27,298 nt of DNA from positions 1-27,298 of the IMG/VR virus record IMGVR_UViG_3300010354_000502; one strand, 5' to 3'. The position numbers and the translations under genes were made by a program. The notes under the pieces were generated by a model. It did not search any database. It had not been told where the DNA came from and saw nothing but the letters and a program-made list of their open reading frames with translations. Shown here in pieces: positions 2,054 to 27,196 of the stretch (its first letter is position 1; each line of letters begins with the position of its first letter). The stretch is from a virus.

Positions 2054-2065
2054 GTTGTTTTTGGT

Positions 2066-4796: not shown

Positions 4797-4799
4797 GGC

Positions 4800-5027: not shown

Positions 5028-5046
5028 GTCGTTGTCGTTGGTTGTT
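4999..5046 (-). repeat. AACGAC hexanucleotide microsatellite across a start codon
   Basis: On the minus strand, AACGAC and close variants repeat on both sides of the ATG at 5027. They form the leader and encode the poly-Thr N-terminus. A shorter run of the same unit flanks the ATG at 4796. Such tandem units can gain or lose copies by slippage. Six-base changes keep the frame, so variation would alter leader length and Thr count without destroying the gene. Confidence 0.6.
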
Positions 5047-5098
5047 AGTCTCATCAGCACGGGCATCACCCGTGGACGCCTTGCGGCGTTTCGACTTG

Positions 5099-10148: not shown

Positions 10149-10153
10149 CCGCT

Positions 10154-11068: not shown

Positions 11069-11397
11069 ACCAATACCTAGCGAAAGCATTTAATGACTAC
11101 TCAAATCACAACACAAACTTTGCACATTTGCTTGATTGGCATCTGTGTCATGGTTTTGTTTTGTGCCGTCCCGAATGCTTTGCAATTGGTTTCTTCACGC
11201 ACTCAAGCGATCCAACCACACCAACCCAACGGCATCATGCAGATTCGTTGTTTGTCACATACTGCGCTGGAGAAATGCCGTTTATCATGCGCGAGTTTGA
11301 TGGAGACTTTGAGTTTATCGTATTTCAACGCCAGTTCAAAAACAGTCCAAGCATAAGAATCTGGAACTATCAAAAAACCCTTAACAGAATAAAATAA
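11065..11397 (+). CDS. Hypothetical protein, 110 aa
   Basis: It begins MNQYLAKAFNDYSNHNTNFA and contains a His/Cys-rich central part (HLLDWHLCHGFVLCRPECF), then FVTYCAGEMPFIMREFDGDF. The ATG at 11065 overlaps the fibre gene stop by ATGA, which decides the start over one at 11047. The compact alpha/beta pattern resembles small proteins often found between fibre and ejection genes, but I cannot name the family. Its His and Cys residues could bind metal. Confidence 0.68.
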   Translation: MNQYLAKAFNDYSNHNTNFAHLLDWHLCHGFVLCRPECFAIGFFTHSSDPTTPTQRHHADSLFVTYCAGEMPFIMREFDGDFEFIVFQRQFKNSPSIRIWNYQKTLNRIK

Positions 11398-11398
11398 T

Positions 11399-12397: not shown

Positions 12398-12404
12398 TAA
12401 GATT

Positions 12405-14183
12405 ATGGCATTAGTAGCAGGACAAGTACCAGTTTCTGGTTATCGAATCCCAGACTATTCTGGGGCGGCACAAGCAGCAGGAGCGGCGCAAGCAGCACCA
12501 TATCAAGTTGCGTCCGGGTTGGTCGGCCAAGTTGGGGATTACTTCAAGCAGCAAGGGGAGAAGAAGAAGCTGATTAAGCAAAGCGATGTTCAGATCGACG
12601 CAGCACTAAAACTATTTCCAGATTTGGCCCCTACATTGCAGGGTGTTCGAGATCAGATCCGCGACGAAAATGTGCCATTAGACGACCGAGCCGCCATCGC
12701 GGATTCTGTTGCTGGCCTCATTAATATGGGAACCAACCAGATGCGGTTCCAAGCCGAACAAGGAATGCAGCAGCAAAGGCTTGGCCTTGAGAGGATGCAA
12801 TATGAAACTGCAGCATCTAGAGCGCAAAGAGAATTTGATTTAAAAGTTTCAGAACAGCAGCAAAAAGATTATGCTGCATCTGCCGAAGCTATTGGATCAT
12901 TGGCAGCTCTTAAATCTGTTGAAGAGAAAACTGGCAAAAAGTTTGTTCCAGATGAAATCGCATCATCTGTAAATGAACTTGCTCAAAGTGGACAAGGGCA
13001 GGCAGCGGCCAATCTTATTTCTAAGTACTCAGCTGGTTTAGACCCAGCAATTAAAGCTGAATTCCAAAGCAAGAAAGCTCAAACACCAGTAAACATTAAT
13101 CTTCCTCAAGGCGGAACACAACAAATGGTTCCTAATGCTGAAGGTGTTTACGAGCCAATTAAAATTGCTGGATCTACTGGGCCAGATGACGCTGGCGTTC
13201 TCCCAAGCATGGTTCTTCCATTAACCGCGACCACTCCGGATGGGACTCCGCTAACAGTTAATGATATCCCACGGGGGGCGGAGAAAACTCAAGAAGTAGA
13301 CATTGAAGGTAAAAAATTTGATGTTTATGTTGATAAAAACTCTCCACTTGAGCCTGTTGATATTTATGGTGTTTATCTTGAAGGATTTGAAAACGCTCCT
13401 AAAGAACAATGGACTCCACAGAAAAAATTCCTTGTTCCTAAACAAGAAGAGCAAAGACAAGCTCCAGTTATTGGGCCGGGTTCTATTGGGTATGCTCCCC
13501 CAAAACCTCCGTCCGGCATGGTAATAGAACAAACCCCAGAAGGAGGGTTTAAATTTGTTCAAGGTCCGGGTGTCTCAGATCGCAGGGAAGAAGCAGCACA
13601 AGCAGCCAAAGAGCAAGGTATTTCAAGGGCTAAAATCGGCACACAAGATATCAATCGAGCTTTAGATGTCCTTGATTCTGGTGTTATGAAAGGATCTGGA
13701 CCACTTGCTTCATTTTATAGGGCCGGTGCAGCGAATTTTGTAAAAGGAACTCCAGAATACACGTTAGCTAAAAGTTTCATTGAACCAATTAAAGCAATGG
13801 TTGCTTTTGGTGAGCTTAGCAAGATGAGGTTGGCGTCACCAACCGGCGGCGCATTGGGTAATGTTGCAAAGTTTGAAACAGATATGCTGCAACAAACGGC
13901 AGGACAGCTTGACATTGATAAAACCGACCCTAAAACACTTAGGGCGAACTTAATTCGCCTGCAGGAACAGTATTTAGATGTTGTTCATGGAACCAGAGAG
14001 CAACGTAGAAAATTGTTGGATGAGGGCAAAATCACAGAAGAACAATATTTTGAAATTGAGTCGCAATACCCAGCATTTACAATGAGTACGACTGGCAGAA
14101 CAGTCCCTCGACAAATTGAGGGAATTGCACCAGAAGCTCAAAAAACAGAAGCAGAAAAAATCCTCGACGAACTTGGAGAATAA
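12405..14183 (+). CDS. Putative internal virion protein, 592 aa
   Basis: Starting MALVAGQVPVSGYRIPDYSG at 12405, just after the preceding stop; a longer reading from 12309 would overlap the upstream gene. An Ala-rich N-terminus leads into a Gln/Glu-rich coiled-coil-like region (roughly residues 110-165, including QQQRLGLERMQYETAASRAQ). Next comes a Pro/Gly-rich middle and a C-terminal helical domain (FGELSKMRLASPTGGALGNV, EQYLDVVHGTREQRRKLLDE). The layout suits the second ejection protein. No lytic enzyme motif is seen. Confidence 0.7.
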   Translation: MALVAGQVPVSGYRIPDYSGAAQAAGAAQAAPYQVASGLVGQVGDYFKQQGEKKKLIKQSDVQIDAALKLFPDLAPTLQGVRDQIRDENVPLDDRAAIADSVAGLINMGTNQMRFQAEQGMQQQRLGLERMQYETAASRAQREFDLKVSEQQQKDYAASAEAIGSLAALKSVEEKTGKKFVPDEIASSVNELAQSGQGQAAANLISKYSAGLDPAIKAEFQSKKAQTPVNINLPQGGTQQMVPNAEGVYEPIKIAGSTGPDDAGVLPSMVLPLTATTPDGTPLTVNDIPRGAEKTQEVDIEGKKFDVYVDKNSPLEPVDIYGVYLEGFENAPKEQWTPQKKFLVPKQEEQRQAPVIGPGSIGYAPPKPPSGMVIEQTPEGGFKFVQGPGVSDRREEAAQAAKEQGISRAKIGTQDINRALDVLDSGVMKGSGPLASFYRAGAANFVKGTPEYTLAKSFIEPIKAMVAFGELSKMRLASPTGGALGNVAKFETDMLQQTAGQLDIDKTDPKTLRANLIRLQEQYLDVVHGTREQRRKLLDEGKITEEQYFEIESQYPAFTMSTTGRTVPRQIEGIAPEAQKTEAEKILDELGE

Positions 14184-14187
14184 CAAG

Positions 14188-17148
14188 ATGGCAGCACCAA
14201 CAACATCTGGGATGACTCCAGCTAGAATTGAAAAAGGCATTGTCAAGCTAAATGACATGAGGCTTAACGCTTTGTCATCTGGTGATAATCAACTTGCGGA
14301 CGAATATGCCAGACAAATCAAAGTTCTAGGCGGCGAGCTGAAAATGGCAGACCCAGAAAAACGTACAAAGATGCAACTTGAGCAAAGACAAGCTCAAGAA
14401 GCGTTGAAAACAGGCACGCCTATTGGTATGCCGTCGACCGAGCTTGGTGGCGAGTTTCAATCAGCGTTTCCAAATGTTCCAACAATGGAATCTGCTGTAG
14501 AGCAGGTTGAACAATTTGAGACGCAGTTACCAAATTTAATTGGAAAGCTATTTCAAGCATCGCCAGATAAAGTTGATATTAAATCTGGTCTTCCAGCTAG
14601 GGATAGATTCAACATGGGTTATCTTCCAACACCTGAAGATAAATTAACTTATCTCAAATCAAAGTATGGTGACGACAATGTTTACAGTATCAATATTGCT
14701 GGTACTCAATCCAATGTAGTAAAGCGCAAGGATGGTAGCATTATTTTGGCTGACGAGGTTGGGGTTGGAGTTAAGGATATTTTGGATCTAAGCGGTGAAG
14801 TTGCACCTACAATTGCCTCAATAGGAGCTGCGGCTATGGCATCACCATCTGGCCCAGGTGCGATAGGAGCTGGCGGTGCCGCATATCTTAGTGTTTCGTC
14901 TTTGCAAGACGCTGTTATGAGGGATGCGCTTGGAACTAATATAAAGCCAGGTGAAATTCTTCAGCGTCGAGGTATTGAAACAGCACTAGGAATGGCTGGT
15001 GATGTGGCTGGTCTTGGGTTTGGTAAATACGCCGCAAGAAGAGTTGGTAAAAATATCACAAGTGGCATCGCCCAATCGCTTGATGAAGGTGCATCAGTTC
15101 TCAGAAAGGCTGGTTTTGATGTAGAAACACCCAAAGGTGCACTTCGTGGAATTAAAGGACTAAAAAAACAACAAGAACTTGCAGCTAGATTTCCAAGCAG
15201 CCAACAGAGAATGGCTAAAAACCTTTCTCAGCTTGGTCTTTATCAGGAGACGCTGAATACTGGACGACCCGTTACAGATAAAGCATTCCAATCCACATTG
15301 AGTGGACTTAGAACACAATATGATGATTTGCTATCCGAAATTGGCAAAAAGGACAAACAAGCGCGTGATATTATTGCATCGAACATTGACAGAAAGCTAG
15401 TGGAGCTTCAAAATCCTACATTTAAGGCTGAACCTATTGGAGAAGAGCTTCTTAGTTATTTGGAAGCTGGCAAAGCTCAAGTAAATGAGCTAAAAAACAA
15501 TGCATTCAACCAATTCTGGGATGAGGCCGATGCATCTGGGATAACATCAACCCCAGAGGATATTGCATCTGTGGTTAAAGGGGCAATATCAACATTTAAG
15601 GTAAAAAACAACCCCGCTGTTGATTCTATTGTAAATGATCTTAATAAAAAGACTCAAGATGGCATTGCTGCTATTCAGTTGCAAAAAAGAATAGCCAGCG
15701 GGGAAATTGATGCAACTCCAGAGTTGTTAGATCAAATTAAAAAAATGGAGCTTAATTCCGCTCCAATTGGCGTAAAGGAACTTAACGAGTATATCCAAGT
15801 TATTCAAGACGCTGTTCCTGGAGCTGATGCTATTGGTGGCAAAACAAAGCAACAAGTAGCCTCTGTTGCTGCAAACCAATTGCGACAATATAGAGACAAC
15901 ATACTGGAGCGGGCTGGTCTATCTGACAAATTTAAGCAAATTAACTCTCAATATGTTAATGATGTTCTTTTATTTGAGCGAAACTCTCCGGGTTCTATAT
16001 TAAAAGAAGCACTTGGAGACACGGTGCTTAGCCCAAGTCAGGCGGTTGAACGAGCAATATCAGACCCAAAAAACATTAGAGATGTGCTTCGTGCCGTGAG
16101 CCTTGGATCTCCAGAAAGAGCACCTTATATGCGTGGACAGCTCCAAAAAGCATACTTGAACAAGATTGGATTGACTGCTGATAGGGGAACGCCATCTGCA
16201 AAGATTGATTTCGACCCAGAAATAGTAACTGAGCTTTACGGGGTAAGTCCATCTGGCAAGGTTAATGAGAATTATGGCAAAATGATGGTTGATAAGCTAA
16301 ACGAGCTTAATGCCGCATTGGCTGACAAAAAACTTAATATCTCAAATGTAAACCCACGAGATATTTCTGATTTGTATTCAGCTCTTAGTGAGGACTCAAG
16401 AAAATCCGTCATTAAGAAAATTACCGAGAGTGTTCAGTTGCAATCGCAAGCTGATAAGATGCTTGATAACGCTTTGATTTCTGCTGCCAAAAAGGGTGAC
16501 TGGAATAAAGTAGACGTTGCCGAGTTTTCAAAGACGATGTTTCGAGTACCAGTGTCGGACATTAACTCGTTTATTACTCGGATGCCAAAGGCTGAGCGAA
16601 AAGTATTACAAGCTGATTTTGTTGCTGAACTTTTAGCTAGATACGGATCAAGTGGAAACTACACACCAAATGGTATTGAGCTTTTTGATGGGACTAAATT
16701 TTTAAAAGACTTCTCAAAAGACAGAACTCTAGGAACCCGTATTAGAAATATCATGGGTGAAGAGTTTCTAACTAAATTTAAAGCGGCTGCCGCTCATATT
16801 GACGCCAATAAAGTTACCGATAAGCAGATTGCTGAAGTGTCTGCAAAAGCCACATTAAGTCGTGGTGGTCCCGGGATTTGGCTAATTACTAGGCCGGGAT
16901 GGGTAGCCAATAGATTTTATGCAGCGATGCACGACAACAAAATGCTCATCCCGCTGCTTGAACTTCAAGCTAGAAATGTTGGTCCAGAGCAAATGGAGAA
17001 AAACATGAAAAAGGCTATCATTGGCGTGATGGGAACCCGTCGAGGGCTTGAGTCACTTGGGGCGCAAGGTCGGAATGATCCAGAGTTTTCCGCAGAAAGC
17101 CAAAAAATTCTGGATGAAGCCATTAAAAGTGGCATGATCCAAAAGTAA
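14188..17148 (+). CDS. Large putative internal virion/ejection protein, 986 aa
   Basis: This is the longest non-terminase gene. The start MAAPTTSGMTPARIEKGIVK at 14188 follows the previous stop by four bases. A Gly/Ala-rich hydrophobic stretch at about residues 207-235 (IASIGAAAMASPSGPGAIGA) could insert in a membrane. Long helical regions rich in Lys, Gln and Asn follow, and a conserved-looking end has GPGIWLITRPGWVANRFYA. Size, position and composition match the largest ejection protein of podoviruses. No transglycosylase catalytic motif was found. It shares the A/T-rich codon use of genes from 10154 onward. Confidence 0.7.
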   Translation: MAAPTTSGMTPARIEKGIVKLNDMRLNALSSGDNQLADEYARQIKVLGGELKMADPEKRTKMQLEQRQAQEALKTGTPIGMPSTELGGEFQSAFPNVPTMESAVEQVEQFETQLPNLIGKLFQASPDKVDIKSGLPARDRFNMGYLPTPEDKLTYLKSKYGDDNVYSINIAGTQSNVVKRKDGSIILADEVGVGVKDILDLSGEVAPTIASIGAAAMASPSGPGAIGAGGAAYLSVSSLQDAVMRDALGTNIKPGEILQRRGIETALGMAGDVAGLGFGKYAARRVGKNITSGIAQSLDEGASVLRKAGFDVETPKGALRGIKGLKKQQELAARFPSSQQRMAKNLSQLGLYQETLNTGRPVTDKAFQSTLSGLRTQYDDLLSEIGKKDKQARDIIASNIDRKLVELQNPTFKAEPIGEELLSYLEAGKAQVNELKNNAFNQFWDEADASGITSTPEDIASVVKGAISTFKVKNNPAVDSIVNDLNKKTQDGIAAIQLQKRIASGEIDATPELLDQIKKMELNSAPIGVKELNEYIQVIQDAVPGADAIGGKTKQQVASVAANQLRQYRDNILERAGLSDKFKQINSQYVNDVLLFERNSPGSILKEALGDTVLSPSQAVERAISDPKNIRDVLRAVSLGSPERAPYMRGQLQKAYLNKIGLTADRGTPSAKIDFDPEIVTELYGVSPSGKVNENYGKMMVDKLNELNAALADKKLNISNVNPRDISDLYSALSEDSRKSVIKKITESVQLQSQADKMLDNALISAAKKGDWNKVDVAEFSKTMFRVPVSDINSFITRMPKAERKVLQADFVAELLARYGSSGNYTPNGIELFDGTKFLKDFSKDRTLGTRIRNIMGEEFLTKFKAAAAHIDANKVTDKQIAEVSAKATLSRGGPGIWLITRPGWVANRFYAAMHDNKMLIPLLELQARNVGPEQMEKNMKKAIIGVMGTRRGLESLGAQGRNDPEFSAESQKILDEAIKSGMIQK

Positions 17149-17209
17149 TCGACAAAACCCTTGCGGAACTGACAATCAAAGGTTAAGAAGTCCAAGTGAC
17201 TTTGAACCA

Positions 17210-17776
17210 ATGAGTGACGACCCAAACGAAAAGCTGAAGCGTGACTACGTTGACGAGCGCGAGGAAAAGGCGGCTTGGTTCCTTGAAGTAAAGGAGCGAG
17301 CCAAGCACCAGCACGGCAACACGGTAGAGCATTACGCCCCAAACAAGGCGGCATTGGCGTTGTGGCTATCTGCACAGGGTGCTAGGCTATCGGACATACG
17401 CGCCAAAACAGGGCTGTCTCGTGAGATTATCCGTGGTCTTGAGTGGAGGCACAGCGACACCCTAGAGACAAAACGCAAAGAGTTCTCGATGCGGTATGCT
17501 ATTGCCGCGCAGGAGTATACCGACCTGTTGTTTGAGCGTTCACAGCAACTGTTTGACAATCCAGACGAACTAGCGAAGATTAGTCCCGACAAGCTGGCGG
17601 TCACTGTGGGCATCCTTACCGATAAAGCTGCACAGCTTACGGGCATGGCGACTACGGTAGTTGAGCATCGCAAAGGCCCAAGCCTAGATGACGCTGCTAA
17701 GATGATTGCTGACGCTAAAGCCCGTATCGCAAACAAAGTCAAGGAAAGCGCAGTTGAAGCGGAGATAGTCGCATGA
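17210..17776 (+). CDS. Terminase small subunit (putative)
   Basis: The 188-residue protein has a helix-turn-helix near residues 53-76 (LSAQGARLSDIRAKTGLSRE followed by IIRGLEWRH). It then has helical segments (AAQEYTDLLFERSQQLFDNP) and a charged C-terminal tail, the usual arrangement of a small terminase: DNA recognition, oligomerisation and contact with the large subunit. It sits one gene upstream of the large terminase. Its stop overlaps the next ATG (ATGA). The role is assigned from the HTH plus position. Confidence 0.75.
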   Translation: MSDDPNEKLKRDYVDEREEKAAWFLEVKERAKHQHGNTVEHYAPNKAALALWLSAQGARLSDIRAKTGLSREIIRGLEWRHSDTLETKRKEFSMRYAIAAQEYTDLLFERSQQLFDNPDELAKISPDKLAVTVGILTDKAAQLTGMATTVVEHRKGPSLDDAAKMIADAKARIANKVKESAVEAEIVA

Positions 17777-18105
17777 TTAAGGAACCAGAATCCAAGTTTG
17801 ACGGGCATCTCTGCTACCACTATACGGTAATGTATGACGGAAAGGCATACAAGTGCCACACTCTCTCTTACGCCTCGTATTTGGCTGAGAAGTTTCACTC
17901 CAAGGTGTGGAATGTAGTGCTACAAAAGCACATTGAACCTCACATTGGCCTCTGCGGATACTGCGAAAAATACAGTAAATTGCATTTTGTGGATGGCAAT
18001 CGAGGTTCGTTTCCTACAAAAGATGATGAATTTGGATGCGAAGAATGTGGTAGCGTTTATCGGATAATCGACATCCTAATGGAAACTGGCGCATACAAGA
18101 AATGA
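17773..18105 (+). CDS. Zinc-ribbon hypothetical protein between terminase genes, 110 aa
   Basis: It begins MIKEPESKFDGHLCYHYTVM. Two Cys pairs, CGYC (about residues 61-64) and CEEC (about 89-92), flank a hydrophilic segment, indicating a zinc ribbon. The N-terminal half has YDGKAYKCHTLSYASYLAEK. The gene overlaps both terminase genes by ATGA, so it is produced in step with them. It could be a packaging accessory, but no family is recognised. Confidence 0.75.
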   Translation: MIKEPESKFDGHLCYHYTVMYDGKAYKCHTLSYASYLAEKFHSKVWNVVLQKHIEPHIGLCGYCEKYSKLHFVDGNRGSFPTKDDEFGCEECGSVYRIIDILMETGAYKK

Positions 18106-20645
18106 ACTGGAGAAAGCACCAGATTCTAACGCCTCCAGACGATGACGAGGTGGCGTTGATGGACCCATCAGAGTTGATGGAGATACATCGGATATACCAT
18201 GAAGCTATTGAGAATGCTGACAAAGACCCATTCCGCTATGGATTTAGGCTTCCTCACTGGGAGAAGGCTGAGGAGCAACTGCAAGAGGTCAATGAGATTC
18301 TGGCTCTAGGTGGCAACCGTTGTCTTGGCGCAGAACAAGAAATCTATGACCCAGTTGCAGATTGCTACAAAAGGGTCGATGAGATTAAAGACCACTTTCA
18401 CGTCAATGCTTGGGACGGTCGTCGAACGGTGGTAGCACGTGCAGAGAAACCATTTCGCAAGCCTGTTGCGGGGATTTACCGAGTTTCCTTAGATAACGGG
18501 CAAGTTCTCTTTTGCTCAAAGGCTCACTTGCTCCTGACTCCCTTCGGATGGCGTTCCTTAGGATCGCTAGATGTCGGCGGTGTTCTAGTGTCTGCCCAGC
18601 CCTCATGTTCGCAACTCCAGCGGGAGTCCACTTTGGGACGCAGCCCTTTAAGGTTTCTTTCAAGTGCTCGGCGTTATTGGCAAAAAGCCCAAGATTTTCT
18701 GGGTCGTTGTTTTGCTTATTGCCGTCAATGTGGTGAACAACCTCTTCGGGTAAAAGGTAACGTCCAATCTTCTTCTCCATCACAAGGCGATGCTCAAGCA
18801 TGTACTTCTCTTTCCTGTAATACTTGCCGTTGCTCTTTGCTTCACGCTTCTTATTCTTTTCAACAACCATTGGATGATCTGGGCAATAAACCTCAATGTA
18901 CCCGGACTTGTTTATGTGGCGACCGCCCTGCCACTCTGGATGACCATCTCCAGCACGAGGCCCAGTCCTTTGGCACTTTATTCCATGTTTGCGGCAGACC
19001 TTGTAAATTGCCTTTGCGGTTATTCTTGAGTCGTATCCAGAGGACACTAGTCTTTGCGCTATCCAATCTTGGGTTTTACCTTCTTGGATGTAAGTGCGTA
19101 TCAATTCTACGGGGTATTGTATGTTTGCAGGCATGCGGCGACAATAGCACGGAACAGGATTATGTCAAGATCCTTTCCATCGATTACCTCCGAGATGATG
19201 TGGTGTGGGATTTTCATGTTCCCATTTATAATAACTACATTGCCTCGGGGGTAATTTCCCACAACAGCGGGAAAACTTCGTGGGGTTCGTACTGCGTGGT
19301 TAAAGCTGCCGTGGAGAACCCAAAGTCTGAGATATTCTGTTTTGCCCAGACATCCGAGGTATCCATCCGTCAGCAACAGAGTGCCGTATGGGGGTGGCTT
19401 CCTGCTGAGTTACGCTCCAAGCAGACTTCTGAGAATGCGTATATCTCGTACACCAAGAAGAACGGGTTCACGGACAACTCCTTAATCCTGCCTAATGGCT
19501 CGCAGATTATCTTTAAAACCTACTCGCAGTACCAGAATAACCCAACGATCCTAGAGGGCGCGGAGCTTGGTTCTAGGAACCCTCAGTGGCACAATATTGG
19601 GGTGTGGCTTGATGAGTACCTTCTTGGGCCAGACTTAATCAACACACTGCGGTTTCGTCTCGCTACTCGGAACTCCAAGATGCTTGTGACCTTCACGCCT
19701 ATTGACGGCTGGACTGAGGTCATTAAAGAGTATTTGGATGGGGCTAAGACTATTGAATCTAGAGAGGCAGATCTACTTAAGAACGAGGTCGTCCCATACG
19801 TTCAAAGGTCAAAGAAGCACAACGCCTCCGTTCACTACTTCCACAGCCAAGACAACCCATTTGGCGGCTACGAACGAATTAAGGACACGCTGCTAGGTAA
19901 ACCCCGCGAGGAGATTCTAATCCGCGCCTACGGGGTTCCAATGAAGTCCCATACGACCAAGTTCCCCAAATTCAACAAGGTGGTAAATGTCGTAGAGCCA
20001 GAGAAGATTCCGACGCGCAATGTTACGCGCTACCATGTTATCGACCCAGCTGGGGCCAAAAACTGGTTTATGTGCTGGGTTGCGGTGGACGAGACTGGGA
20101 CCTTCTGGGTGTACCGCGAATGGCCTGGTGTTGATGTCGGTGACTGGGCCGAGTGGCGTGGTGGCAAGTGGGTTCCAGGCGAGGGGGCTAAAGGACAAGG
20201 ATTCGGCATCCGCGACTATATCGAACTTATCGAAGAACTGGAAGGCGAGGAGGAAATCTTTGAGCGTCTGATTGACCCTCGGCTTGGAGCGGCAAAGTAC
20301 CAAGTGCAGGATGGTTCCTCATCGATTATTGAGGATTTGAATGATGCTGGTATGGTCTGCATTCCTGCGCCAGGGCTTGAGATTGACGATGGGTTGCAAG
20401 CCCTTATTGGAAAGATGTCGTGGGATACGACTAAACCGCTAGATTCGGTCAACCGACCGCATTTCTATGTCAGCTCGGAGTGTGAGAATATCATCAACGC
20501 ATTGTCGGAATACACGGGTGAGGGCGGTTTGAAGGAGGCATGGAAAGACCCAATTGACACCCTGCGCTATGCCGCTATCGCTAATCTAGATCATGTTGAC
20601 AGCAGCCAGTCATTTGTTACAACTCATGGGTCTGGTGGATACTAA
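18102..20645 (+). CDS. terL: Terminase large subunit precursor containing an intein
   Basis: This 847-residue precursor gives a 532-residue terminase after removal of residues 74-388. The ATPase Walker A is assembled only by splicing: LGGNR (69-73) joins SGKTSWG (389-395). Walker B is IGVWLDEY (Asp504, Glu505), with a coupling motif LVTFTP (528-533). The nuclease domain shows YHVIDPAG (Asp648), LIDPRLG (Asp725) and KDPIDTLRYA (Asp816, Asp819). The enzyme powers DNA translocation through the portal and cuts concatemers. The start overlaps the upstream stop by ATGA. Until the intein is removed the nucleotide-binding loop is broken, so packaging depends on splicing. Confidence 0.95.
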   Translation: MNWRKHQILTPPDDDEVALMDPSELMEIHRIYHEAIENADKDPFRYGFRLPHWEKAEEQLQEVNEILALGGNRCLGAEQEIYDPVADCYKRVDEIKDHFHVNAWDGRRTVVARAEKPFRKPVAGIYRVSLDNGQVLFCSKAHLLLTPFGWRSLGSLDVGGVLVSAQPSCSQLQRESTLGRSPLRFLSSARRYWQKAQDFLGRCFAYCRQCGEQPLRVKGNVQSSSPSQGDAQACTSLSCNTCRCSLLHASYSFQQPLDDLGNKPQCTRTCLCGDRPATLDDHLQHEAQSFGTLFHVCGRPCKLPLRLFLSRIQRTLVFALSNLGFYLLGCKCVSILRGIVCLQACGDNSTEQDYVKILSIDYLRDDVVWDFHVPIYNNYIASGVISHNSGKTSWGSYCVVKAAVENPKSEIFCFAQTSEVSIRQQQSAVWGWLPAELRSKQTSENAYISYTKKNGFTDNSLILPNGSQIIFKTYSQYQNNPTILEGAELGSRNPQWHNIGVWLDEYLLGPDLINTLRFRLATRNSKMLVTFTPIDGWTEVIKEYLDGAKTIESREADLLKNEVVPYVQRSKKHNASVHYFHSQDNPFGGYERIKDTLLGKPREEILIRAYGVPMKSHTTKFPKFNKVVNVVEPEKIPTRNVTRYHVIDPAGAKNWFMCWVAVDETGTFWVYREWPGVDVGDWAEWRGGKWVPGEGAKGQGFGIRDYIELIEELEGEEEIFERLIDPRLGAAKYQVQDGSSSIIEDLNDAGMVCIPAPGLEIDDGLQALIGKMSWDTTKPLDSVNRPHFYVSSECENIINALSEYTGEGGLKEAWKDPIDTLRYAAIANLDHVDSSQSFVTTHGSGGY
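18403..19134 (-). CDS. HNH homing endonuclease encoded antisense inside the intein, 243 aa
   Basis: The product starts MPANIQYPVELIRTYIQEGK. An N-terminal helix-turn-helix-like segment (TQDWIAQRLVSSGYDSRITA, residues 21-40) is followed by a phage-type HNH domain: GYIEVYCPDHPMV (78-90), YMLEHRLVMEKKIGRYLLPE (111-130), VVHHIDGNKQNNDPENLGLF (132-151), and AEH with His157. The ββα metal-site residues (His134/135, Asn143/147, His157) are present. Residues from about 181 onward run antisense to the intein N-splicing domain and look less conserved. The gene lies wholly inside the intein on the opposite strand to the terminase. It most likely cuts intein-free terminase genes to drive intein spread; that role is inferred. 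Confidence 0.88.
   Translation of the reverse strand: MPANIQYPVELIRTYIQEGKTQDWIAQRLVSSGYDSRITAKAIYKVCRKHGIKCQRTGPRAGDGHPEWQGGRHINKSGYIEVYCPDHPMVVEKNKKREAKSNGKYYRKEKYMLEHRLVMEKKIGRYLLPEEVVHHIDGNKQNNDPENLGLFANNAEHLKETLKGCVPKWTPAGVANMRAGQTLEHRRHLAILRNAIRRESGASEPLSKRELARYLRKLGKSPQQACEMVSLHVLPPFDDRPKH
19141..19168 (-). promoter_or_regulatory. Candidate promoter of the antisense HNH gene (leaderless)
   Basis: The minus strand has TTGACA (19168-19163), 16 bp, then TATTGT (19146-19141, 4 of 6). The expected start point, seven bases after the -10, is the A of the HNH ATG at 19134, so the mRNA would have no leader. No Shine-Dalgarno sequence precedes that ATG. The -35 element is the complement of codons for Tyr-Val-Lys in the intein C-terminal splicing segment, so the same bases would serve both. 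Confidence 0.45.
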
Positions 20646-20648
20646 CCA

Positions 20649-20837
20649 ATGAAAAAAGAACCTAAACCACTAACCGCCGACGGCCTTGTGCTTGACTGTT
20701 TGGTCGAGGCGTACTTTAAAAGGCTGCGAGCTGAAAGGCTAGGTTCTACCCCAAGACTTACTGAGGAGCTTAACATCCTTGAAGATGCCATCAGATACAT
20801 GAAACTAAAACAACTCCATGAAAACGACCAAAACTAA
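20649..20837 (+). CDS. Small hypothetical protein, 62 aa
   Basis: A charged, helical protein beginning MKKEPKPLTADGLVLDCLVE and ending MKLKQLHENDQN. Helices around residues 12-28 and 38-58 could form a hairpin or dimer. It starts three bases after the terminase stop, and its 3' end overlaps the next gene by 20 bp. No family is recognised; the position between terminase and portal suggests a packaging or head-assembly accessory. Confidence 0.75.
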   Translation: MKKEPKPLTADGLVLDCLVEAYFKRLRAERLGSTPRLTEELNILEDAIRYMKLKQLHENDQN

Positions 20838-21117
20838 AAAGACCCCCGCCAAACGCGGAAGACCGCCGAAATCCAAGGTAATTATTGACGAACGACCGTG
20901 TAGCATCGCCAGCCTAGTGGCCCAGCAGGAGGGACACTCCGAGGAATATCTAGTCCTACGGGTATGCAATAACCCTACTTGGGTAGTCGTCCGCATGGAT
21001 GGGGTGGCAGTCCCTGTAAAATGCCCAGTTCGAGTTTCAAACAAACTTGTTGGCAAACGGATAAAAGTATGCCTAGTATCGGGTGAACCCGAAGACTATT
21101 ACGAATACGCACCATGA
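20818..21117 (+). CDS. AT-hook-containing small protein, 99 aa
   Basis: The N-terminus MKTTKTKKTPAKRGRPPKSK holds an AT-hook core (RGRPP at residues 13-17) in a Lys-rich tail, which binds the minor groove of A/T-rich DNA. A compact beta-rich domain follows (EEYLVLRVCNNPTWVVVRMD, CPVRVSNKLVGKRIKVCLVS). The stop overlaps the portal start by ATGA. A DNA-binding protein translated with portal and terminase could bind the packaging substrate or travel in the head; this is inferred from motif and position. Confidence 0.75.
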   Translation: MKTTKTKKTPAKRGRPPKSKVIIDERPCSIASLVAQQEGHSEEYLVLRVCNNPTWVVVRMDGVAVPVKCPVRVSNKLVGKRIKVCLVSGEPEDYYEYAP

Positions 21118-23180
21118 GTCCAGAGCAAGAGATTGAAGACAATGCACTTATCTATGTTGATAAGGAGCCGGATATTGGTGCGTTGACCGATGCCTACGAT
21201 ACCTGTCTTATTGACCTTGACTACTACTTTGAGTCGTGTCTGCGGTCGTACAATGACAGGCGCAACATCTGGGATGGGAAGAGTGACGACCTCCGCAAGA
21301 ACGGAGCTAACGCTTTCCCGTGGCAGGGCGCGTCCGACCAAGAAGTCAATGTCGTTGGTGAGCGTATTGATATGTATGTATCGCTGTTTGACCAAGCTCT
21401 TCAGCGTTCCCACATTAAAGCATTCCCAACCTCGATGGCCTCAATGCCACGGGCGGCTGTAGTTTCGGCATTCCTCAAGTGGATGCGTTCTACTTACATT
21501 CCAGGCTTCAAGGATCAAATGGAGCTTGGTGCAAACTATTTGCTAGAGAAGGGGATCATGATCTCCTATGTCGGCTGGAAGCGAGAAAAAAGGACATATT
21601 TGCAACAAGTATCCGTCGAGCAAGTCGCTCAAGCATCCCCTGATCTAGCAGACCTTATCATTACTGGGGCTGACGACGAGATGCTTCTGACGCTTCTTCA
21701 GCAGGCATTCCCAGACTTGTCTGATAAACGCGCTAAGAAAGCTATCAAGGATATGCGTAAGACTGGCATGGCAGAGATTCCACTTGCTCGCCAGACCGTA
21801 GACTGCCCGATTGTCCACTCATGCGCCCCAGACGGTGAAGTTCTATTTCCTCCGTATGTCTCTGACCCTCAACGCTCTCCGTACATTTTCTGGCGCACCT
21901 TCCTAACATCTCAAGAGCTTGAGAAAAAAGTGACCAACGAAGGATGGGATCGCAAGTGGGTTGACTTTGCCATTAACAATCTGCGTGGGAAAGACTCAAT
22001 GTACCTTGACGGCGAGAAGGTCAAGACTGTGACCCGCCTGCCGATCACGGACGACAACGACCTTGTCATGGTGGTGTATGGCTACCAGCGTTTGATTGAT
22101 GAAGAGGATGGTTCTGAAGGTATCTACTGCTCTGTATTCCATCCACAAGCCGAAGGTTACGCCAAACACGAACTCCTTAACGGATATGACGACTATCCAT
22201 TTACTGTCACACGCCTATCCAACGACCAGAAACGGATGTACGAGGTTCAAACCTTTAGCGACATACTCCGTGGAGCGCAGATGCAAATCAAGACCGAGCG
22301 TGATAGCCGTATTGACCGTGCTTCTCTTGCTACTCTTCCTCCTCTCATGCACCCCGCTGGACGGCCACCGTCAGACTGGGGTCCAGGTCGTAGGGTTCCG
22401 TACCGTCGCCTTGGGGAAATCGCATGGGGTCCAGTGCCGCCAATGGACCAAGGTTCCATGGAGGCAGAGATGTCCATGAGAGCGCAAGCAGACCGCGCCG
22501 TGGGACTAGACCTCACAAACCCGCTTACGACCGCGAGACAGCAATTCTATGTGGGTAAGTTCCTCGATCATGTCCGCGATGTGCTTTCGATGGCGTGGAA
22601 GCTATTCCAGCGCATGGGGCCAGACGAGGTATTCTTCCAAGTCACGGGCAACCCAAACCCACAAGTGATGACCAAGGGCAACCCAGATGAGAACTTTAGC
22701 ATCACTGTGAACTTTGACTCGCTTGCTACCGATCCAGAGACGGCTGAAACTCAGCTCAAGAACATGGTGTCCTTGGTGCAACTTGACCGCAACGGCATCC
22801 TTGATGTGAATAAGTTACTTGAGTTCACTGCATCCAGTATTAACCCGATCTTTGCCGACTATGTTCTTCAGCCTATGGAGGAAGCGCAGCAAAAGGTGAT
22901 GAAGAACGTCACCGACGATCTTGCCAAAATCTTTGCAGGCATCGAGGTTCCAGCGCAACCCAACGGGGCGCAGATCGCAATGCAGTTGGTACAGGCCTAT
23001 GTCCAGCAACCAGATGTCGCACAACGCGCACAGCAGGACGAGGCATTCGCGGCACGACTCCAGAAGTACGCCGAGCAGTACCAGTTCCAACTTCAACAAG
23101 CCCAGAACGCAGAGATCGGTCGTATCGGCACGGCTCCAGCGCAGATGGGTGGAACGCAAACGCAAGGAATGCAGCAATAA
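21114..23180 (+). CDS. Portal protein
   Basis: The 688-residue protein sits directly after the terminase group. Its content is portal-like: an N-terminal SYNDRRNIWDGKSDDLRKNG and GANAFPWQGASDQEVNVVGE entry, a central DYPFTVTRLSNDQKRMYEVQ region, and a helical RIDRASLATLPPLMHPAGRP segment. The Gln-rich C-terminal helices (FQLQQAQNAEIGRIGTAPAQ) resemble a barrel or crown end. Twelve copies normally form the ring through which terminase pumps DNA and to which the tail attaches. Length is in the usual range for large podovirus portals. Confidence 0.85.
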   Translation: MSPEQEIEDNALIYVDKEPDIGALTDAYDTCLIDLDYYFESCLRSYNDRRNIWDGKSDDLRKNGANAFPWQGASDQEVNVVGERIDMYVSLFDQALQRSHIKAFPTSMASMPRAAVVSAFLKWMRSTYIPGFKDQMELGANYLLEKGIMISYVGWKREKRTYLQQVSVEQVAQASPDLADLIITGADDEMLLTLLQQAFPDLSDKRAKKAIKDMRKTGMAEIPLARQTVDCPIVHSCAPDGEVLFPPYVSDPQRSPYIFWRTFLTSQELEKKVTNEGWDRKWVDFAINNLRGKDSMYLDGEKVKTVTRLPITDDNDLVMVVYGYQRLIDEEDGSEGIYCSVFHPQAEGYAKHELLNGYDDYPFTVTRLSNDQKRMYEVQTFSDILRGAQMQIKTERDSRIDRASLATLPPLMHPAGRPPSDWGPGRRVPYRRLGEIAWGPVPPMDQGSMEAEMSMRAQADRAVGLDLTNPLTTARQQFYVGKFLDHVRDVLSMAWKLFQRMGPDEVFFQVTGNPNPQVMTKGNPDENFSITVNFDSLATDPETAETQLKNMVSLVQLDRNGILDVNKLLEFTASSINPIFADYVLQPMEEAQQKVMKNVTDDLAKIFAGIEVPAQPNGAQIAMQLVQAYVQQPDVAQRAQQDEAFAARLQKYAEQYQFQLQQAQNAEIGRIGTAPAQMGGTQTQGMQQ

Positions 23181-23196
23181 TCACCAACTTAATATT

Positions 23197-23457
23197 ATGG
23201 AATACAAACCTAAAACATCGTGGCTTAAGCAGCAGATTGCACGGAAGACTAGAGGAGTGCGCGATTACAATATTGCCGAAGCTCAAATGCAGGAAAAGCA
23301 AATGAAGTACCTGCAACGCAGCCCTAGATTTGCATCTCTTGATAGCGCAACACAAAAGGTTCAAGAGGACATCCGTGCTGACATCAAGGGCTACATCCAC
23401 GCCAAAAACAAGGCACGTGGCACGCAAAGTTCTGCTGAACGCAAGGTTGTCAAATGA
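23197..23457 (+). CDS. Basic helical hypothetical protein, 86 aa
   Basis: It begins MEYKPKTSWLKQQIARKTRG and is rich in Lys, Arg and Gln with long helices (NIAEAQMQEKQMKYLQRSPR; KVQEDIRADIKGYIHAKNKA). The ATG at 23197 follows the portal stop by 16 bp behind an A/T-rich leader; a longer reading would overlap the portal gene. The stop overlaps the next ATG by ATGA. It is the first of five consecutive basic small proteins before the scaffold gene. Function unknown. Confidence 0.72.
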   Translation: MEYKPKTSWLKQQIARKTRGVRDYNIAEAQMQEKQMKYLQRSPRFASLDSATQKVQEDIRADIKGYIHAKNKARGTQSSAERKVVK

Positions 23458-23600
23458 AGAAGCAGATGATCAAACGCGCAGATGGTTCCATGTCTCCTCG
23501 TGGGATGTGGGACAACATCCGTACAGCTAAAGGTTCTGGTAAAAAACCTACCAAGGAAATGCTCAAGCAAGAGCGCAAGATCAAGCGGAAGTCAAAGTAA
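23454..23600 (+). CDS. Very basic microprotein, 48 aa
   Basis: A 48-codon gene beginning MKKQMIKRADGSMSPRGMWD and ending KQERKIKRKSK, with Lys and Arg clustered in the second half. It overlaps the preceding stop by ATGA and the next start by one base (TAATG), so it is locked into the operon. The composition predicts nucleic-acid binding; no family is recognised. Confidence 0.7.
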   Translation: MKKQMIKRADGSMSPRGMWDNIRTAKGSGKKPTKEMLKQERKIKRKSK

Positions 23601-23842
23601 TGGAGAAGCGTTTCACCAAGGTTGTCAAGAACCCGAAGACTGGTCGCACACGAACCATCAAGTACGGACAGGCAGGTAAGGCTGCTGATGGAGGTGATCG
23701 TATTCGCCCAGGCACAAAGAAGGGGGATGCTTATTGCGCTCGTTCTGCCAAGATCAAGGGTGACTGGAAGTCTGACCCGAACTCGCCAAACAACCTCTCA
23801 CGCCGCAAGTGGAAGTGCCGAGGAAGCAAGTCCATGAAATAA
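23600..23842 (+). CDS. Basic conserved phage protein (DUF6321-like), 80 aa
   Basis: The sequence has a distinctive core, RIRPGTKKGDAYCARSAKIK, followed by DPNSPNNLSRRKWKCRGSKS. I associate this pattern with a small uncharacterised phage family (DUF6321-like); the name is from memory. It is strongly basic with two Cys about 27 residues apart. It follows the previous gene with TAATG coupling. It is possibly a head-associated DNA-binding protein, given its position between portal and scaffold. Confidence 0.75.
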   Translation: MEKRFTKVVKNPKTGRTRTIKYGQAGKAADGGDRIRPGTKKGDAYCARSAKIKGDWKSDPNSPNNLSRRKWKCRGSKSMK

Positions 23843-23846
23843 TCTT

Positions 23847-24032
23847 ATGAAGAAACCAAAAACTAAAGTAGCCAAGCAAGCTAAAGTGTCGAAGGTCATG
23901 CGGGAATACAAGGCTGGAACACTCCACGCTGGTCGTGACCCTAAAGGCCCGAAGAAAGCACCCGTGGTGAAGAGCCGTAAACAAGCGATTGCAATTGCAC
24001 TCAGTCAAGCAGGAATGTCAAAACGCAAATAA
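23847..24032 (+). CDS. Basic small protein (DUF6496-like), 61 aa
   Basis: It contains KVSKVMREYKAGTLHAGRDP followed by VVKSRKQAIAIALSQAGMSK, a pattern typical of the short DUF6496 family in which a basic helix is followed by SRKQAIAIALSEA. The family has no established function that I know of. Here it is the third of four successive very basic proteins under 85 residues. Confidence 0.8.
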   Translation: MKKPKTKVAKQAKVSKVMREYKAGTLHAGRDPKGPKKAPVVKSRKQAIAIALSQAGMSKRK

Positions 24033-24036
24033 ATCT

Positions 24037-24171
24037 ATGAAAAAAGGTAAATCATGTGGCTGCGGCCACGAAGAAAAGGAATATGGCAAAGGCAAGAACG
24101 GCAAAAAAGGCTACGTCGAGATCGAGATCAAGATGGGCCGTATGCCGAAGAAGAAAGCCAAGCGTAAATAA
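24037..24171 (+). CDS. Very basic Cys-containing microprotein, 44 aa
   Basis: It begins MKKGKSCGCGHEEKEYGKGK and ends RMPKKKAKRK. A CGCGH cluster near the N-terminus could hold a metal, and nearly a third of residues are Lys. The ATG at 24037 follows the previous stop by four bases. No family is recognised; the composition suggests DNA or RNA binding. Confidence 0.66.
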   Translation: MKKGKSCGCGHEEKEYGKGKNGKKGYVEIEIKMGRMPKKKAKRK

Positions 24172-24185
24172 ATAACCACCAACCA

Positions 24186-24395
24186 ATGACACCACTACCA
24201 CAACCAACCGTACAAGAAGCCGTAGCAGCACTATCCGACCGTGATGAGTTCAAGGTCATCGTCCAGTTCGTCCGTGACGAGCGTGAGCGTTTCTTTGGAG
24301 ATTTGCGCCAGTGCGTGGACGCTAACGAGGTGATGAAGGTCACAGGCAGCATTGCCACGCTGGACGAGCTTCTGGGACTACTGTCGTCGAAGTGA
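24186..24395 (+). CDS. Hypothetical helical protein, 69 aa
   Basis: It begins MTPLPQPTVQEAVAALSDRD and continues with amphipathic helices (KVIVQFVRDERERFFGDLRQ; SIATLDELLGLLSSK). Unlike the preceding four it is acidic to neutral. It ends the portal-proximal gene run; the next 745 bp contain no clear rightward gene. Small two-helix proteins at this position can be head assembly accessories, but the function is unknown. Confidence 0.75.
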   Translation: MTPLPQPTVQEAVAALSDRDEFKVIVQFVRDERERFFGDLRQCVDANEVMKVTGSIATLDELLGLLSSK

Positions 24396-24467
24396 CTTGA
24401 CAGATAACTTGATTTATGCCTAACTAACATCGCCAGAAATGGCTTTGTTTCATTGGTTTGGTTGTTA

Positions 24468-24506
24468 GGGGTCGTAGAGGTTTTTCGTTTTTCCCTCTAC
24501 GGCCCC
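24468..24506 (+). terminator. Strong hairpin after the portal/microprotein genes
   Basis: The arms 24468-24480 (GGGGTCGTAGAGG) and 24494-24506 (CCTCTACGGCCCC) form 13 pairs with one T·G wobble around a 13-base T-rich loop. The wobble pairs on the plus strand but would be A·C on the minus strand, favouring a rightward transcript. The downstream sequence is only moderately T-rich (gcttctttgtgg), so it may be a weak terminator or an mRNA-end stabiliser. Confidence 0.5.
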
Positions 24507-24554
24507 GCTTCTTTGTGGTAGTTAATTCATAATTGGACGCTTTATGTCCTTATT

Positions 24555-24737
24555 TTAATACGATTGAACTCCCGGCATTTGAGGAAGGCTCGTAGGCATA
24601 GTTCGCCTTAAACGGCGAGACCATGCTTCATACTCCCGTATATTCTTCGGAAAGGACGACTTACACACCAGCAAGCTGGAACCAATGATAGCAGAGGGTT
24701 GAGGCTGTAGGACTGCATCAAGCTCATTGGTCGTCAC
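24555..24737 (-). CDS. Uncertain minus-strand frame, 60 aa
   Basis: From a GTG at 24737 the frame runs 60 codons, beginning MTTNELDAVLQPQPSAIIGS and including FPKNIREYEAWSRRLRRTMP. Codon choice is plausible and an in-frame TAG lies just upstream, but there is no family match, no coupled neighbour and no leader signal. It lies downstream, in the leftward direction, of the small RNA terminator at 24859-24903, so readthrough of that terminator could transcribe it. It could equally be part of an unrecognised RNA or decayed sequence. Confidence 0.3.
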   Translation of the reverse strand: MTTNELDAVLQPQPSAIIGSSLLVCKSSFPKNIREYEAWSRRLRRTMPTSLPQMPGVQSY

Positions 24738-24858
24738 ACTCTATTTAGCTACGCCGCGACTTACTTCAAACGTAGTACCCTGTGAGACTTTTACCTAGAT
24801 CCCGTGCGGTCGTTTGAGCGTTCCTCGGTTTCTTCGATATGTCACTAACCCTCGCGGT

Positions 24859-24903
24859 AAAAAAAGGGCCAGCACGAGGAGATAGGAGTACTCGTGCCGG
24901 CCC
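24859..24903 (-). terminator. Intrinsic terminator, leftward
   Basis: On the minus strand GGGCCGGCACGAG pairs with CTCGTGCTGGCCC across a 12-base loop, followed by seven T. All 13 positions pair with one G·U on the minus strand; on the plus strand that position would be a C·A mismatch and no T run follows. The direction of transcription is therefore clear from the sequence. Confidence 0.85.
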
Positions 24904-24964
24904 TAGATCCAGAACATCTCTGCGCTGGAGGGGTGAAAGTAACGATGAGTCCTATCTCTCGTCA
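24859..24964 (-). ncRNA. Candidate leftward small RNA (~105 nt) with loop-pairing 5' end
   Basis: A promoter at 24998-24971 predicts a 5' end near 24964, and an intrinsic terminator ends at the T run 24865-24859. Near the 5' end, GAGATAGGA (24958-24950) is perfectly complementary to TCCTATCTC in the terminator loop (24887-24879). Between them UCCAG and CUGGA can close a small internal hairpin. The RNA could form a pseudoknot, or in an alternative pairing the 5' segment could extend to 16 pairs and break the terminator stem. No open frame of note is present. I know no matching RNA family. Confidence 0.6.
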
Positions 24965-24970
24965 ACGCAA

Positions 24971-24998
24971 ATAATGCACGATTTTTGCGTCATGTCAA
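24971..24998 (-). promoter_or_regulatory. Candidate promoter of the leftward small RNA
   Basis: TTGACA (24998-24993), a 16-bp spacer and CATTAT (24976-24971, 4 of 6 to TATAAT) on the minus strand. It lies at the right distance before the RNA ending at the intrinsic terminator. The layout matches the candidate promoters at 7362 and 19168, which also have perfect TTGACA and 16-bp spacing. Confidence 0.55.
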
Positions 24999-25140
24999 CA
25001 GACTTTTCAGTTCTAGAAAAAACGCGTGAGTTTTTGGGCAACTCAATACCTTACTAAACTACTTGACATAATAATGATTTTTGGCTTGACTTCATACGAA
25101 CACGCACCGCCGAGCGTAAATGGCGTTCTAAACAAACATT

Positions 25141-26181
25141 ATGAGTAATCCAGAAGCTACCGCCGAAGCTACAGAATCGGTGTCCAACCTGTCATTCGAG
25201 GAGCTTTTAGCTCAACGTGTGGCTCGACACACTGCCCCAGAAGAGGAACCAGAGGAACAACCCGAGGAACCCTCCGAAACCGAGGACGAAGAACCTGCCA
25301 GTCTAGAAGACGAGGAATCTTCAGAGGTTGAAGAGGAAGCCGACGAGGACGATTCCGATACTGAATCCGAGGAGCAAGCCGAAATTGACCTGCTATCGCT
25401 GACTACAGAGCAGATTCAATCTCTCGCCAAGAAGGGCAAGTCACGCCTCCTACAGCGCATTGGAGAACTGACAGCGCAAAAGAAAGCCCTTGAGGAGAAG
25501 ATTCAATCCCAGCCACAAACGCCAGCAAAGGTAATTCCTCAAGACGAGAACCCATTCCGTGATGTTACCTCATTCGAGGAACTGAAAGGAAAGTACGACG
25601 AACTTGAGAAGACCCTTGAGTCTACCGACGAGATCCTAGAAGAACATGAGGACTACGGTCCCGAGGACATTATCGTGGTAGGAGACAAGGAGTTTACCAA
25701 AAAGCAGATTCGGAAAGCCAACCGCAACGCTAGAGAGGCACTGACGAAGTACATCCCAGCTCAACAACAGCACCTAATCCAGGTTGCCCAGTTCGAGCAA
25801 ATGGCCAAGCAGTACCAGGAAGCGGCAAAAGTAGAAGTGCCAGAGATCCAAGACGAAGAGTCTGAGATTGGCAAGAGCTACAAAGCGTTGGTGTCGGACC
25901 CACTAGTTGACAAAGTAAAAGCACAAATCCCAGAGATTGGTTTCCAAATTGAATACATCCTAGCTCACGCAGCTCGGTCTATTTACGGAGGAAAGAAGAT
26001 CAAGGCCCAACCAGCGGTGGGAAATAAGTTGAAGGTAAATCCATCCTCAACCCCATTTGGTGCTGGCGCAGCTAAGTCTTCCACCACCAAGAATGCAAAG
26101 GTCGTAGATGCGTACAGCCGGTTTGAAAAAACTGGGAGTGCAGATGAATGGATTGCTGCCAGAATCGCTAAATTCAAATAA
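25141..26181 (+). CDS. Capsid scaffolding protein (putative)
   Basis: The 346-residue protein has an extremely acidic N-terminal third (about residues 35-85, long runs of Glu and Asp). A coiled-coil-like segment follows (SRLLQRIGELTAQKKALEEK), then a long helical middle (REALTKYIPAQQQHLIQVAQ). The basic C-terminus ends DEWIAARIAKFK. Acidic, coiled-coil proteins with a basic C-terminus immediately upstream of the major capsid gene are the usual form of phage scaffolds. It would guide procapsid assembly and leave or be degraded before packaging. No protease domain is seen. Confidence 0.82.
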   Translation: MSNPEATAEATESVSNLSFEELLAQRVARHTAPEEEPEEQPEEPSETEDEEPASLEDEESSEVEEEADEDDSDTESEEQAEIDLLSLTTEQIQSLAKKGKSRLLQRIGELTAQKKALEEKIQSQPQTPAKVIPQDENPFRDVTSFEELKGKYDELEKTLESTDEILEEHEDYGPEDIIVVGDKEFTKKQIRKANRNAREALTKYIPAQQQHLIQVAQFEQMAKQYQEAAKVEVPEIQDEESEIGKSYKALVSDPLVDKVKAQIPEIGFQIEYILAHAARSIYGGKKIKAQPAVGNKLKVNPSSTPFGAGAAKSSTTKNAKVVDAYSRFEKTGSADEWIAARIAKFK

Positions 26182-26200
26182 CTTCTAACTAACTAAAATT

Positions 26201-27196
26201 ATGCCCATTAGTGCTACCTATCAACCCAGCGCACCTGTCGCCAAGACTGGCCAAGGTTCCGCTATCTCTAACCGTGAGGATCTCAGCAACGAACTTGCTA
26301 TCCTTGCTCCCGAAGAAACCCCGATCCTTTCGCTCGCATCGAAGGGCAAGGCATCCTCAACCTACACCGAGTGGACCGTCGATAGCCTTGCTGCTCCCGT
26401 GACGAGTGGTGTTTCGGAAGGTTCCGATGTGACTTCGTTCAGCGACAAGTTTGCTGATCGCGCTCGCCTTGGTAACTACATCCAACTCATGCGCCGCGAC
26501 TATCTCGTGTCGAACCTGCAACAAGCTGTGACGAGCGTTGGCCCTGCTAACATCGCCCAAGCCGAAGCCAAGTCGATGCGTGAACTCAAGCGTGACATCG
26601 AAGCTACCCTCGCCTCCGACAACGAAATGACTGTCGAAAACGGTGCTGGTACTCCCTACGGTATGCGCGGTCTTGGTAAGTGGATTCAGTCCACCGCTCA
26701 AGCCACGAACCCAGTTCCCGCTGCTTATCGTACGCCTTCTGGCTCGATCCTCAGCGCGGCTCCTACGGAAACCACCTTCAACGATGTTATCGGTTCGATC
26801 TTCTCCCGTAATGGCGAGATGAACAGTCTCACGCTAGTTGCTAACGTCGCTCTCCGTAAGGTTGTTTCGGGCTTCACCCGTGCCACTGCTTCGGCCAGTA
26901 GCCAAACCTACCACGTCAATCAAGACGCTACCAGCAAGGCTATCACCTTTGCTGTTAACCTCTATGACTCTGACTTCGGTATCGTTAAGATCGTTAACGG
27001 CAACCCAAGCTGCATGACCGCCTCGAATGGTCTTGGCTATGTTATCAACCCGAAATACCTCGGCTTCAACACCCTCATCCCGATGGGTGCTACCCGTCTT
27101 GAGAACCAAGGTGGTGGCGAGCGTGGTTATATCGACGTTGCTGGTACGCTGGTTGTTAAGCATCCGCAAGCTCACGGCAAGATCGCCTATTCCTAA
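26201..27196 (+). CDS. Major capsid protein, SU10-like (DUF5309)
   Basis: The 331-residue protein carries the DUF5309/SU10-like capsid pattern: LAILAPEETPILSLASKGKA, then TYTEWTVDSLAAPVTSGVSE, GNYIQLMRRDYLVSNLQQAV, an acidic ELKRDIEATLASDNEMTVEN segment and a C-terminal VINPKYLGFNTLIPMGATRL. These proteins have the HK97 fold. The gene follows the scaffold by 19 bp and begins behind an A-rich leader (ctaaaattATG). Codon choice is visibly more biased to C-ending codons than in surrounding genes, as expected for the most abundant virion protein. Confidence 0.93.
   Translation: MPISATYQPSAPVAKTGQGSAISNREDLSNELAILAPEETPILSLASKGKASSTYTEWTVDSLAAPVTSGVSEGSDVTSFSDKFADRARLGNYIQLMRRDYLVSNLQQAVTSVGPANIAQAEAKSMRELKRDIEATLASDNEMTVENGAGTPYGMRGLGKWIQSTAQATNPVPAAYRTPSGSILSAAPTETTFNDVIGSIFSRNGEMNSLTLVANVALRKVVSGFTRATASASSQTYHVNQDATSKAITFAVNLYDSDFGIVKIVNGNPSCMTASNGLGYVINPKYLGFNTLIPMGATRLENQGGGERGYIDVAGTLVVKHPQAHGKIAYS

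Follow-up and report, generated by a model that had tools for sequence, protein, structure and literature searches.

The window analyzed here, a 27,298-nucleotide stretch of viral DNA (positions 1 to 27,298 of IMG/VR record IMGVR_UViG_3300010354_000502), carries structural genes at 7435–27196 on the plus strand and exonuclease VIII-like and RecT-like genes at 942–5461 on the minus strand. Among named phages, no close DNA relative of the window was found, and a protein-level relative of its terminase was found only in phage C75C1. The gene for the terminase large subunit (18102–20645, plus strand) encodes an 847-residue precursor, which splicing would reduce to 532 residues, the length of intein-free relatives. 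Comparison with empty alleles delimits an N-extein (18102–18320) and a C-extein (19266–20645), the latter starting with SGKT and matching PF03237 (Terminase_6N). Between them, an intein running from Cys1 to Asn315 (18321–19265, plus strand; terminase residues 74–388) interrupts the Walker A motif at GGNR^SGKT, with Ser as the +1 residue. Because intein-free relatives read NEILALGGNRSGKTSWGSYC across the junction, the insert comprises exactly 18321–19265, and precisely this segment is absent from the empty alleles.

The initial annotation had proposed an intein from Cys74 to Asn388 with good splicing blocks, and its coordinates proved right. Searched alone, the intein matches PF14890 (Intein_splicing) with 37.4 bits against a cut-off of 35.8 in Pfam, and its catalytic residues are intact. 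The residues expected of a class 1 intein are present, namely C1, a block B SKAH with H69, and a C-terminal HN315 followed by the +1 Ser; C1, H69, D297, V300, Y306 and N315 are invariant in 44 inteins. A predicted Hint fold and the exact in-frame insertion at a conserved motif likewise conform to this class. An AlphaFold2 model built on the intein alignment comprises an N-terminal splicing domain (residues 1–90; 18321–18590; pLDDT about 98) and a C-terminal splicing domain (residues 279–315; 19155–19265; pLDDT about 97), the latter also matching TIGR01443 (intein_Cterm). Foldseek retrieved the Mtu RecA mini-intein, which matches the N-terminal splicing domain, and the NpuDnaB and gp41-1 inteins. 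The linker between the two domains (residues 97–273; 18609–19139) is open and predicted to be disordered, with a pLDDT below 50 over most of its length. Pfam and further family searches gave no endonuclease match to the forward linker, as the initial annotation had maintained; the intein thus lacks the same-frame endonuclease domain that bifunctional inteins carry between their splicing blocks.

The part of the intein with low pLDDT corresponds to the DNA that encodes a nuclease on the other strand. An open reading frame at 18403–19134 (minus strand) specifies the 243-residue, well-formed HNH protein that had been claimed from the sequence alone, matching PF13392 (HNH_3) at 2e-10 in Pfam and phrog_10730 at 9e-26 among phage families. 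Its HNH_3 core (HNH residues 115–151; 18682–18792, minus strand) holds the motif EVVHHIDGN...N..H, and H134, H135, N143, N147, N154 and H157 are invariant in 48 homologues. Both the catalytic motif and the family match are those of an HNH homing endonuclease. The protein is modeled by AlphaFold2 with a pLDDT of 91.6; its top PDB match in Foldseek, I-HmuI (1u3e), is weak (E 0.09, probability 0.77). The two frames are in a phase in which position 1 of the HNH codons and position 1 of the forward codons form one base pair. The HNH domain had been placed wholly in the linker. This placement holds for the HNH core, but not for the C-terminal part of the protein, as about 60 C-terminal codons (18403–18590) overlap the N-terminal splicing domain. 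This segment consequently codes for structured protein on both strands, and shows only 3/6/4 variable sites at its three codon positions, out of about 62 each. As some loci seemed to lack the HNH reading frame, decay of the nuclease gene to a pseudogene was considered; we make no such claim because in the seven loci read, the frame runs at least up to the C-terminal region before it meets a stop, and the HNH core is intact.

We analyzed how selection acts on the two superimposed frames. When the HNH gene was rewritten with synonymous codons, 3000 times for each codon table, the forward frame acquired about 8–10 stops on average and was free of stops in 0 of 3000 trials, while the natural sequence has none (P < 1/3000). 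Of the 25 sites at which a stop-creating codon pair would interrupt the forward frame, none uses one, compared to 35 of 68 control sites. These patterns indicate that the forward frame is kept open through codon choice. Counts of variable linker sites at forward codon positions 1/2/3 in four terminase-intein groups are 26/69/16, 15/54/10, 46/104/47 and 20/71/13, i.e. forward position 2, which is the wobble position of the HNH codons, varies most, the opposite of an ordinary gene. In the splicing blocks beyond the HNH overlap, the ordinary pattern is seen, with forward position 3 most variable (e.g. 24/13/76). Three more lineages with enough variation behave alike, position 2 being fastest in the linker and position 3 in the splicing blocks. 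In the terminase groups, pN/pS ranges from 0.12 to 0.23 in the HNH frame (minus-frame value for the window gene, 0.19), from 1.56 to 2.36 in the forward linker (2.36 in the 315-residue group) and from 0.12 to 0.27 in the N-terminal splicing domain read forward. Judged by these substitution tests, the HNH frame, on whose selection in relatives the initial annotation had let its proposal hinge, is under purifying selection, and the forward linker evolves as if free of purifying selection on the forward product. The further assertion that the same DNA serves as an open forward linker and a reverse nuclease gene is borne out by the lack of forward stops and by the low pN/pS of the HNH frame.

The layout is not confined to the window. 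A terminase-seeded scan of viral contigs uncovered terminase inteins with minus-strand HNH genes in related phages, as the initial annotation had suggested looking for; they measure 295, 310, 314 and 315 residues and were accompanied by HNH-less mini-inteins of 130–136 residues and by empty alleles. In a scan with the HNH alignment, 79 of 79 further loci faced a long open frame that matched splicing domains, and seeding with divergent HNH members added 49 loci, all opposite splicing domains and 47 with a continuous opposing frame. All 128 further HNH homologues classified in the two scans are thus opposite intein splicing domains, a count that includes near-duplicates, several contigs common to the scans and a few loci cut by contig ends with one splicing block only. 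The codon phase is identical wherever it could be scored automatically; for one locus of the 79 (L180), two frames were candidates. The elements interrupt their hosts at GGNR^SGKT, at Walker A positions of the GGNRxGK^T type and elsewhere. Host proteins comprise several terminase families and helicases of ResIII/SNF2-like (L089), SNF2 (L213), strawberry-notch (L313, L218) and DEAD (L287) type. Among 36 HNH relatives in bacterial genome records, five show the layout (L213–L216 and L218), whereas most of the others, like 11 viral controls, are free-standing and face neither a splicing domain nor a long open frame on the other strand. The five records derive from Acidobacteria, Deltaproteobacteria, Opitutae and Polaromonas, and their nameable hosts are SNF2 and strawberry-notch-type helicases. 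Going by these sequence comparisons, the antisense-HNH layout recurs widely in phages and in several host proteins.

Cultured phages carry such elements as well. Pseudoalteromonas phage PHS3 (KX912252.1, L322) has a 300-residue terminase intein with an antisense HNH gene. Its record annotates the HNH gene, but the intein was overlooked, and the annotated terminase consequently lacks its N-terminus. The PHS3 splicing domain is divergent and escaped detection by Pfam; the intein was recognized by its exact insertion, its Cys1 and HHN|S ends, and weak matches to custom splicing-block models. Phage AL (MT002875.2, L321) is recorded on the same host species, Pseudoalteromonas marina; its terminase has the empty site (GGAG^SGKS) and shares 98.3% identity with that of PHS3. 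What separates the two is an exact, in-frame insertion of 900 bp whose flanks (about 500 bp upstream, 200 bp downstream) are 98–100% identical, and the pair renders homing directly testable. Eight records of Pectobacterium and Dickeya phages (Ymer, Abuela and relatives) contain another antisense-HNH intein at a different Walker A position. In Pectobacterium phage Ymer (OP748252.2, L129; 1050–3362, minus strand), the intein-bearing terminase is annotated as a hypothetical protein.

We mapped seven intein states onto a tree of 79 terminase C-exteins. The states require 26 changes, compared to a possible minimum of six; empty, mini and antisense-HNH alleles are scattered, and empty alleles adjoin HNH inteins. 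Between the window and L001, third codon positions are 0.96–0.97 identical in the intein and 0.57–0.75 in the exteins. Between L034 and L036, they are identical in the splicing blocks, beyond the HNH overlap or along its margins, and 0.56–0.70 identical in the exteins. Some C-extein identities involving L002 were left out, as they came from ungapped comparison and understate similarity. The discordance on the tree and these near-identical inteins show horizontal transfer of the intein between diverged terminases. A sporadic distribution and horizontal transfer of the carrier are also what characterizes an HNH homing endonuclease. Distances between HNH proteins and between splicing domains correlate with r = 0.41 in a Mantel test, in which the maximum of 999 permutations was 0.42; as r does not exceed every permutation, we do not claim strict co-descent of the two parts.

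It is highly probable, in our view, that the window holds a mobile intein which occupies a terminase's Walker A motif and for which an independent HNH gene, antisense to the intein's linker, provides the homing endonuclease. Read forward, the DNA would encode two splicing half-domains with a long, disordered linker between them, and the intein would excise itself to restore the terminase. Read in reverse from its own start, it would yield an HNH nuclease that resembles I-HmuI and other enzymes encoded in introns. The probable role of this nuclease is to cut, at the insertion site, terminase genes without the intein that co-infecting phages bring along, whereupon recombinational repair would copy the intein into the cut gene; the phage's exonuclease VIII-like and RecT-like genes could contribute to the repair. 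Splicing, expression of the HNH protein in the cell, cleavage of empty alleles and a benefit of separate expression are steps we infer. The element would thus work like a homing intein, while its anatomy departs from the in-frame layout of bifunctional inteins.

The nuclease might instead be a hyperparasite for which the linker is a harmless site of residence and HNH-less mini-inteins are the homing target; the intein as such would have ceased to home. HNH-less mini-inteins (L050, L054, L055–L065) do interleave with HNH inteins on the terminase tree, but so do empty alleles. Moreover, splicing blocks outside the HNH overlap were co-transferred, with 96–100% third-position identity, and it is the entire intein that has been gained or lost between PHS3 and AL; we regard this explanation as unlikely. 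Another possibility is that the HNH protein serves packaging or the exclusion of rival phages, mobility being a by-product. HNH proteins adjoining terminases help packaging in some phages, and most of the host proteins found are terminases. However, the same element resides in helicases and is absent from close relatives, which argues that it is not essential for packaging, and exclusion of intein-free rivals would be compatible with homing; such a role is very unlikely to be the main one. There is likewise only a slim chance that the linker is translated with splicing lost, the insert persisting as a tolerated loop with a hidden nuclease. In a phage methylase, the ShiLan HNH insertion persists without splicing (PMC11855218), and the window insert is an open frame too. 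Against this idea stand the invariant catalytic residues, the low forward pN/pS of the N-terminal splicing domain, the confidently predicted splicing fold, and the expectation that an unspliced insertion in Walker A would destroy the ATPase. Finally, codon bias can create long antisense reading frames, but the chance that the minus-strand frame is such a shadow or an annotation artifact is negligible given its HNH family matches (1e-10 to 1e-26), its purifying selection and its recurrence in unrelated host proteins, and the codon-position and recoding tests rule it out.

Returning to the homing intein with an antisense nuclease, a promoter-like site (TTGACA-16-TATTGT with a TG; 19141–19168, minus strand) found by sequence scan ends 6 nt before the HNH ATG and is also found in L001, L002, L083 and L085; it would start a leaderless HNH mRNA. 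Comparable sites precede 26.5% of 49 HNH starts and 0.8% of control windows. The -35 element coincides with a conserved forward Val-Lys pair, encoded by GTCAAG in 36 of 42 distinct HNH inteins, and since it overlaps forward codons under constraint, the promoter evidence is suggestive only. Among other lineages, a Shine-Dalgarno match of at least 5 bases precedes 16 of 43 HNH starts, compared to 5.7% of all ATGs, and the strength of the HNH Shine-Dalgarno correlates with that of other genes on the same contig (Spearman 0.46, p 0.013). In the window, neither the HNH gene nor any of 19 genes checked has a clear Shine-Dalgarno. The HNH gene is on the same strand as the window's exonuclease and RecT genes and opposite the structural genes, an arrangement that would allow separate timing of HNH expression. 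The promoter-like site here and the ribosome-binding sites at HNH starts elsewhere make it plausible that, in this layout, nuclease dose does not depend on terminase expression.

The usual view of inteins has the homing nuclease encoded in frame, nuclease and host protein being made together. The arrangement described here would separate expression of the nuclease from that of the host gene, and explains inteins that seem to be nuclease-free. In many phages, one DNA segment encodes two unrelated proteins, one on each strand and each subject to selection, offering a clean natural system for studies of antisense dual coding. Some group I introns have an endonuclease gene antisense to the host gene; they involve no dual coding because an intron needs no open forward frame. 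I-HmuI-type homing endonucleases (PDB 1u3e), which combine an HNH with DNA-binding regions and provide the best, albeit weak, fold match, are encoded in an RNA-splicing group I intron, whereas the HNH gene of the window lies opposite a protein-splicing element. In split inteins ("fractured genes"), a free-standing endonuclease gene separates the intein halves and the host gene is in two pieces; in the window, by contrast, the host frame runs through the nuclease gene.

Mycobacteriophage TerL inteins also sit in terminase ATPase motifs; those tested splice, and some cut intein-free terminase genes (PMC5050341). Their endonuclease is a same-frame domain of the intein, unlike the separate antisense gene of the window (PMC5050341). 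In the ShiLan insert of phage methylases, an HNH gene lies in another frame on the same strand, and its authors found no intein or intron splicing element (PMC11855218). Both elements are open host-frame inserts that hide an HNH gene in another frame and spread as mobile elements. They differ in that the ShiLan HNH gene is same-strand and the insert has no splicing domains, while the window element has an antisense HNH gene and a complete splicing domain. The ShiLan element, same-strand and out-of-frame, is the nearest precedent in the open literature searched. The initial annotation knew of no described intein with an antisense nuclease, and we found no report of one in the open-licence PubMed Central literature; novelty is provisional.

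A broader scenario is conceivable, though we put it forward tentatively: these may be ancient, widespread, bidirectionally coding selfish elements with their own nuclease promoter and ribosome-binding site, which moved intact among terminases, helicases and other ATPases and yielded split inteins once the forward frame broke (compare L311, below). The layout may bear on the origin of split inteins. At L311 (IMGVR_UViG_3300049489_001113, minus strand of the locus), an AAA+-like ATPase has its splicing domains on two open reading frames. The N-part stops within the linker, the C-part shows an ATG (AAAGAGGTCGTCAACATG) immediately ahead of the C-terminal splicing block, and the antisense HNH gene lies between. 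L311 looks like a natural split intein derived from the antisense-HNH class, and may be a link between the two layouts.

Several further loci bear on neighboring types of insert. A 989-residue N6/N4 DNA methylase frame on a contig of a Nitrospira MAG (L231; 1523–4489, minus strand) faces an antisense HNH gene in the same phase; no splicing domain was detected in this frame, and the locus is possibly an antisense counterpart of the ShiLan element. In Mycobacterium phage Constella (L130; 1878–3305), an annotated methyltransferase has a same-strand HNH gene in another frame, resembling ShiLan. Two relatives of the window terminase (L064, 380–3007; L031, 6001–9513) contain, close to the C-terminus, a second insert whose ends are intein-like, at KD^CIDVLRYA. 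This second insert has an in-frame LAGLIDADG-like motif, and the L031 protein holds both inteins.
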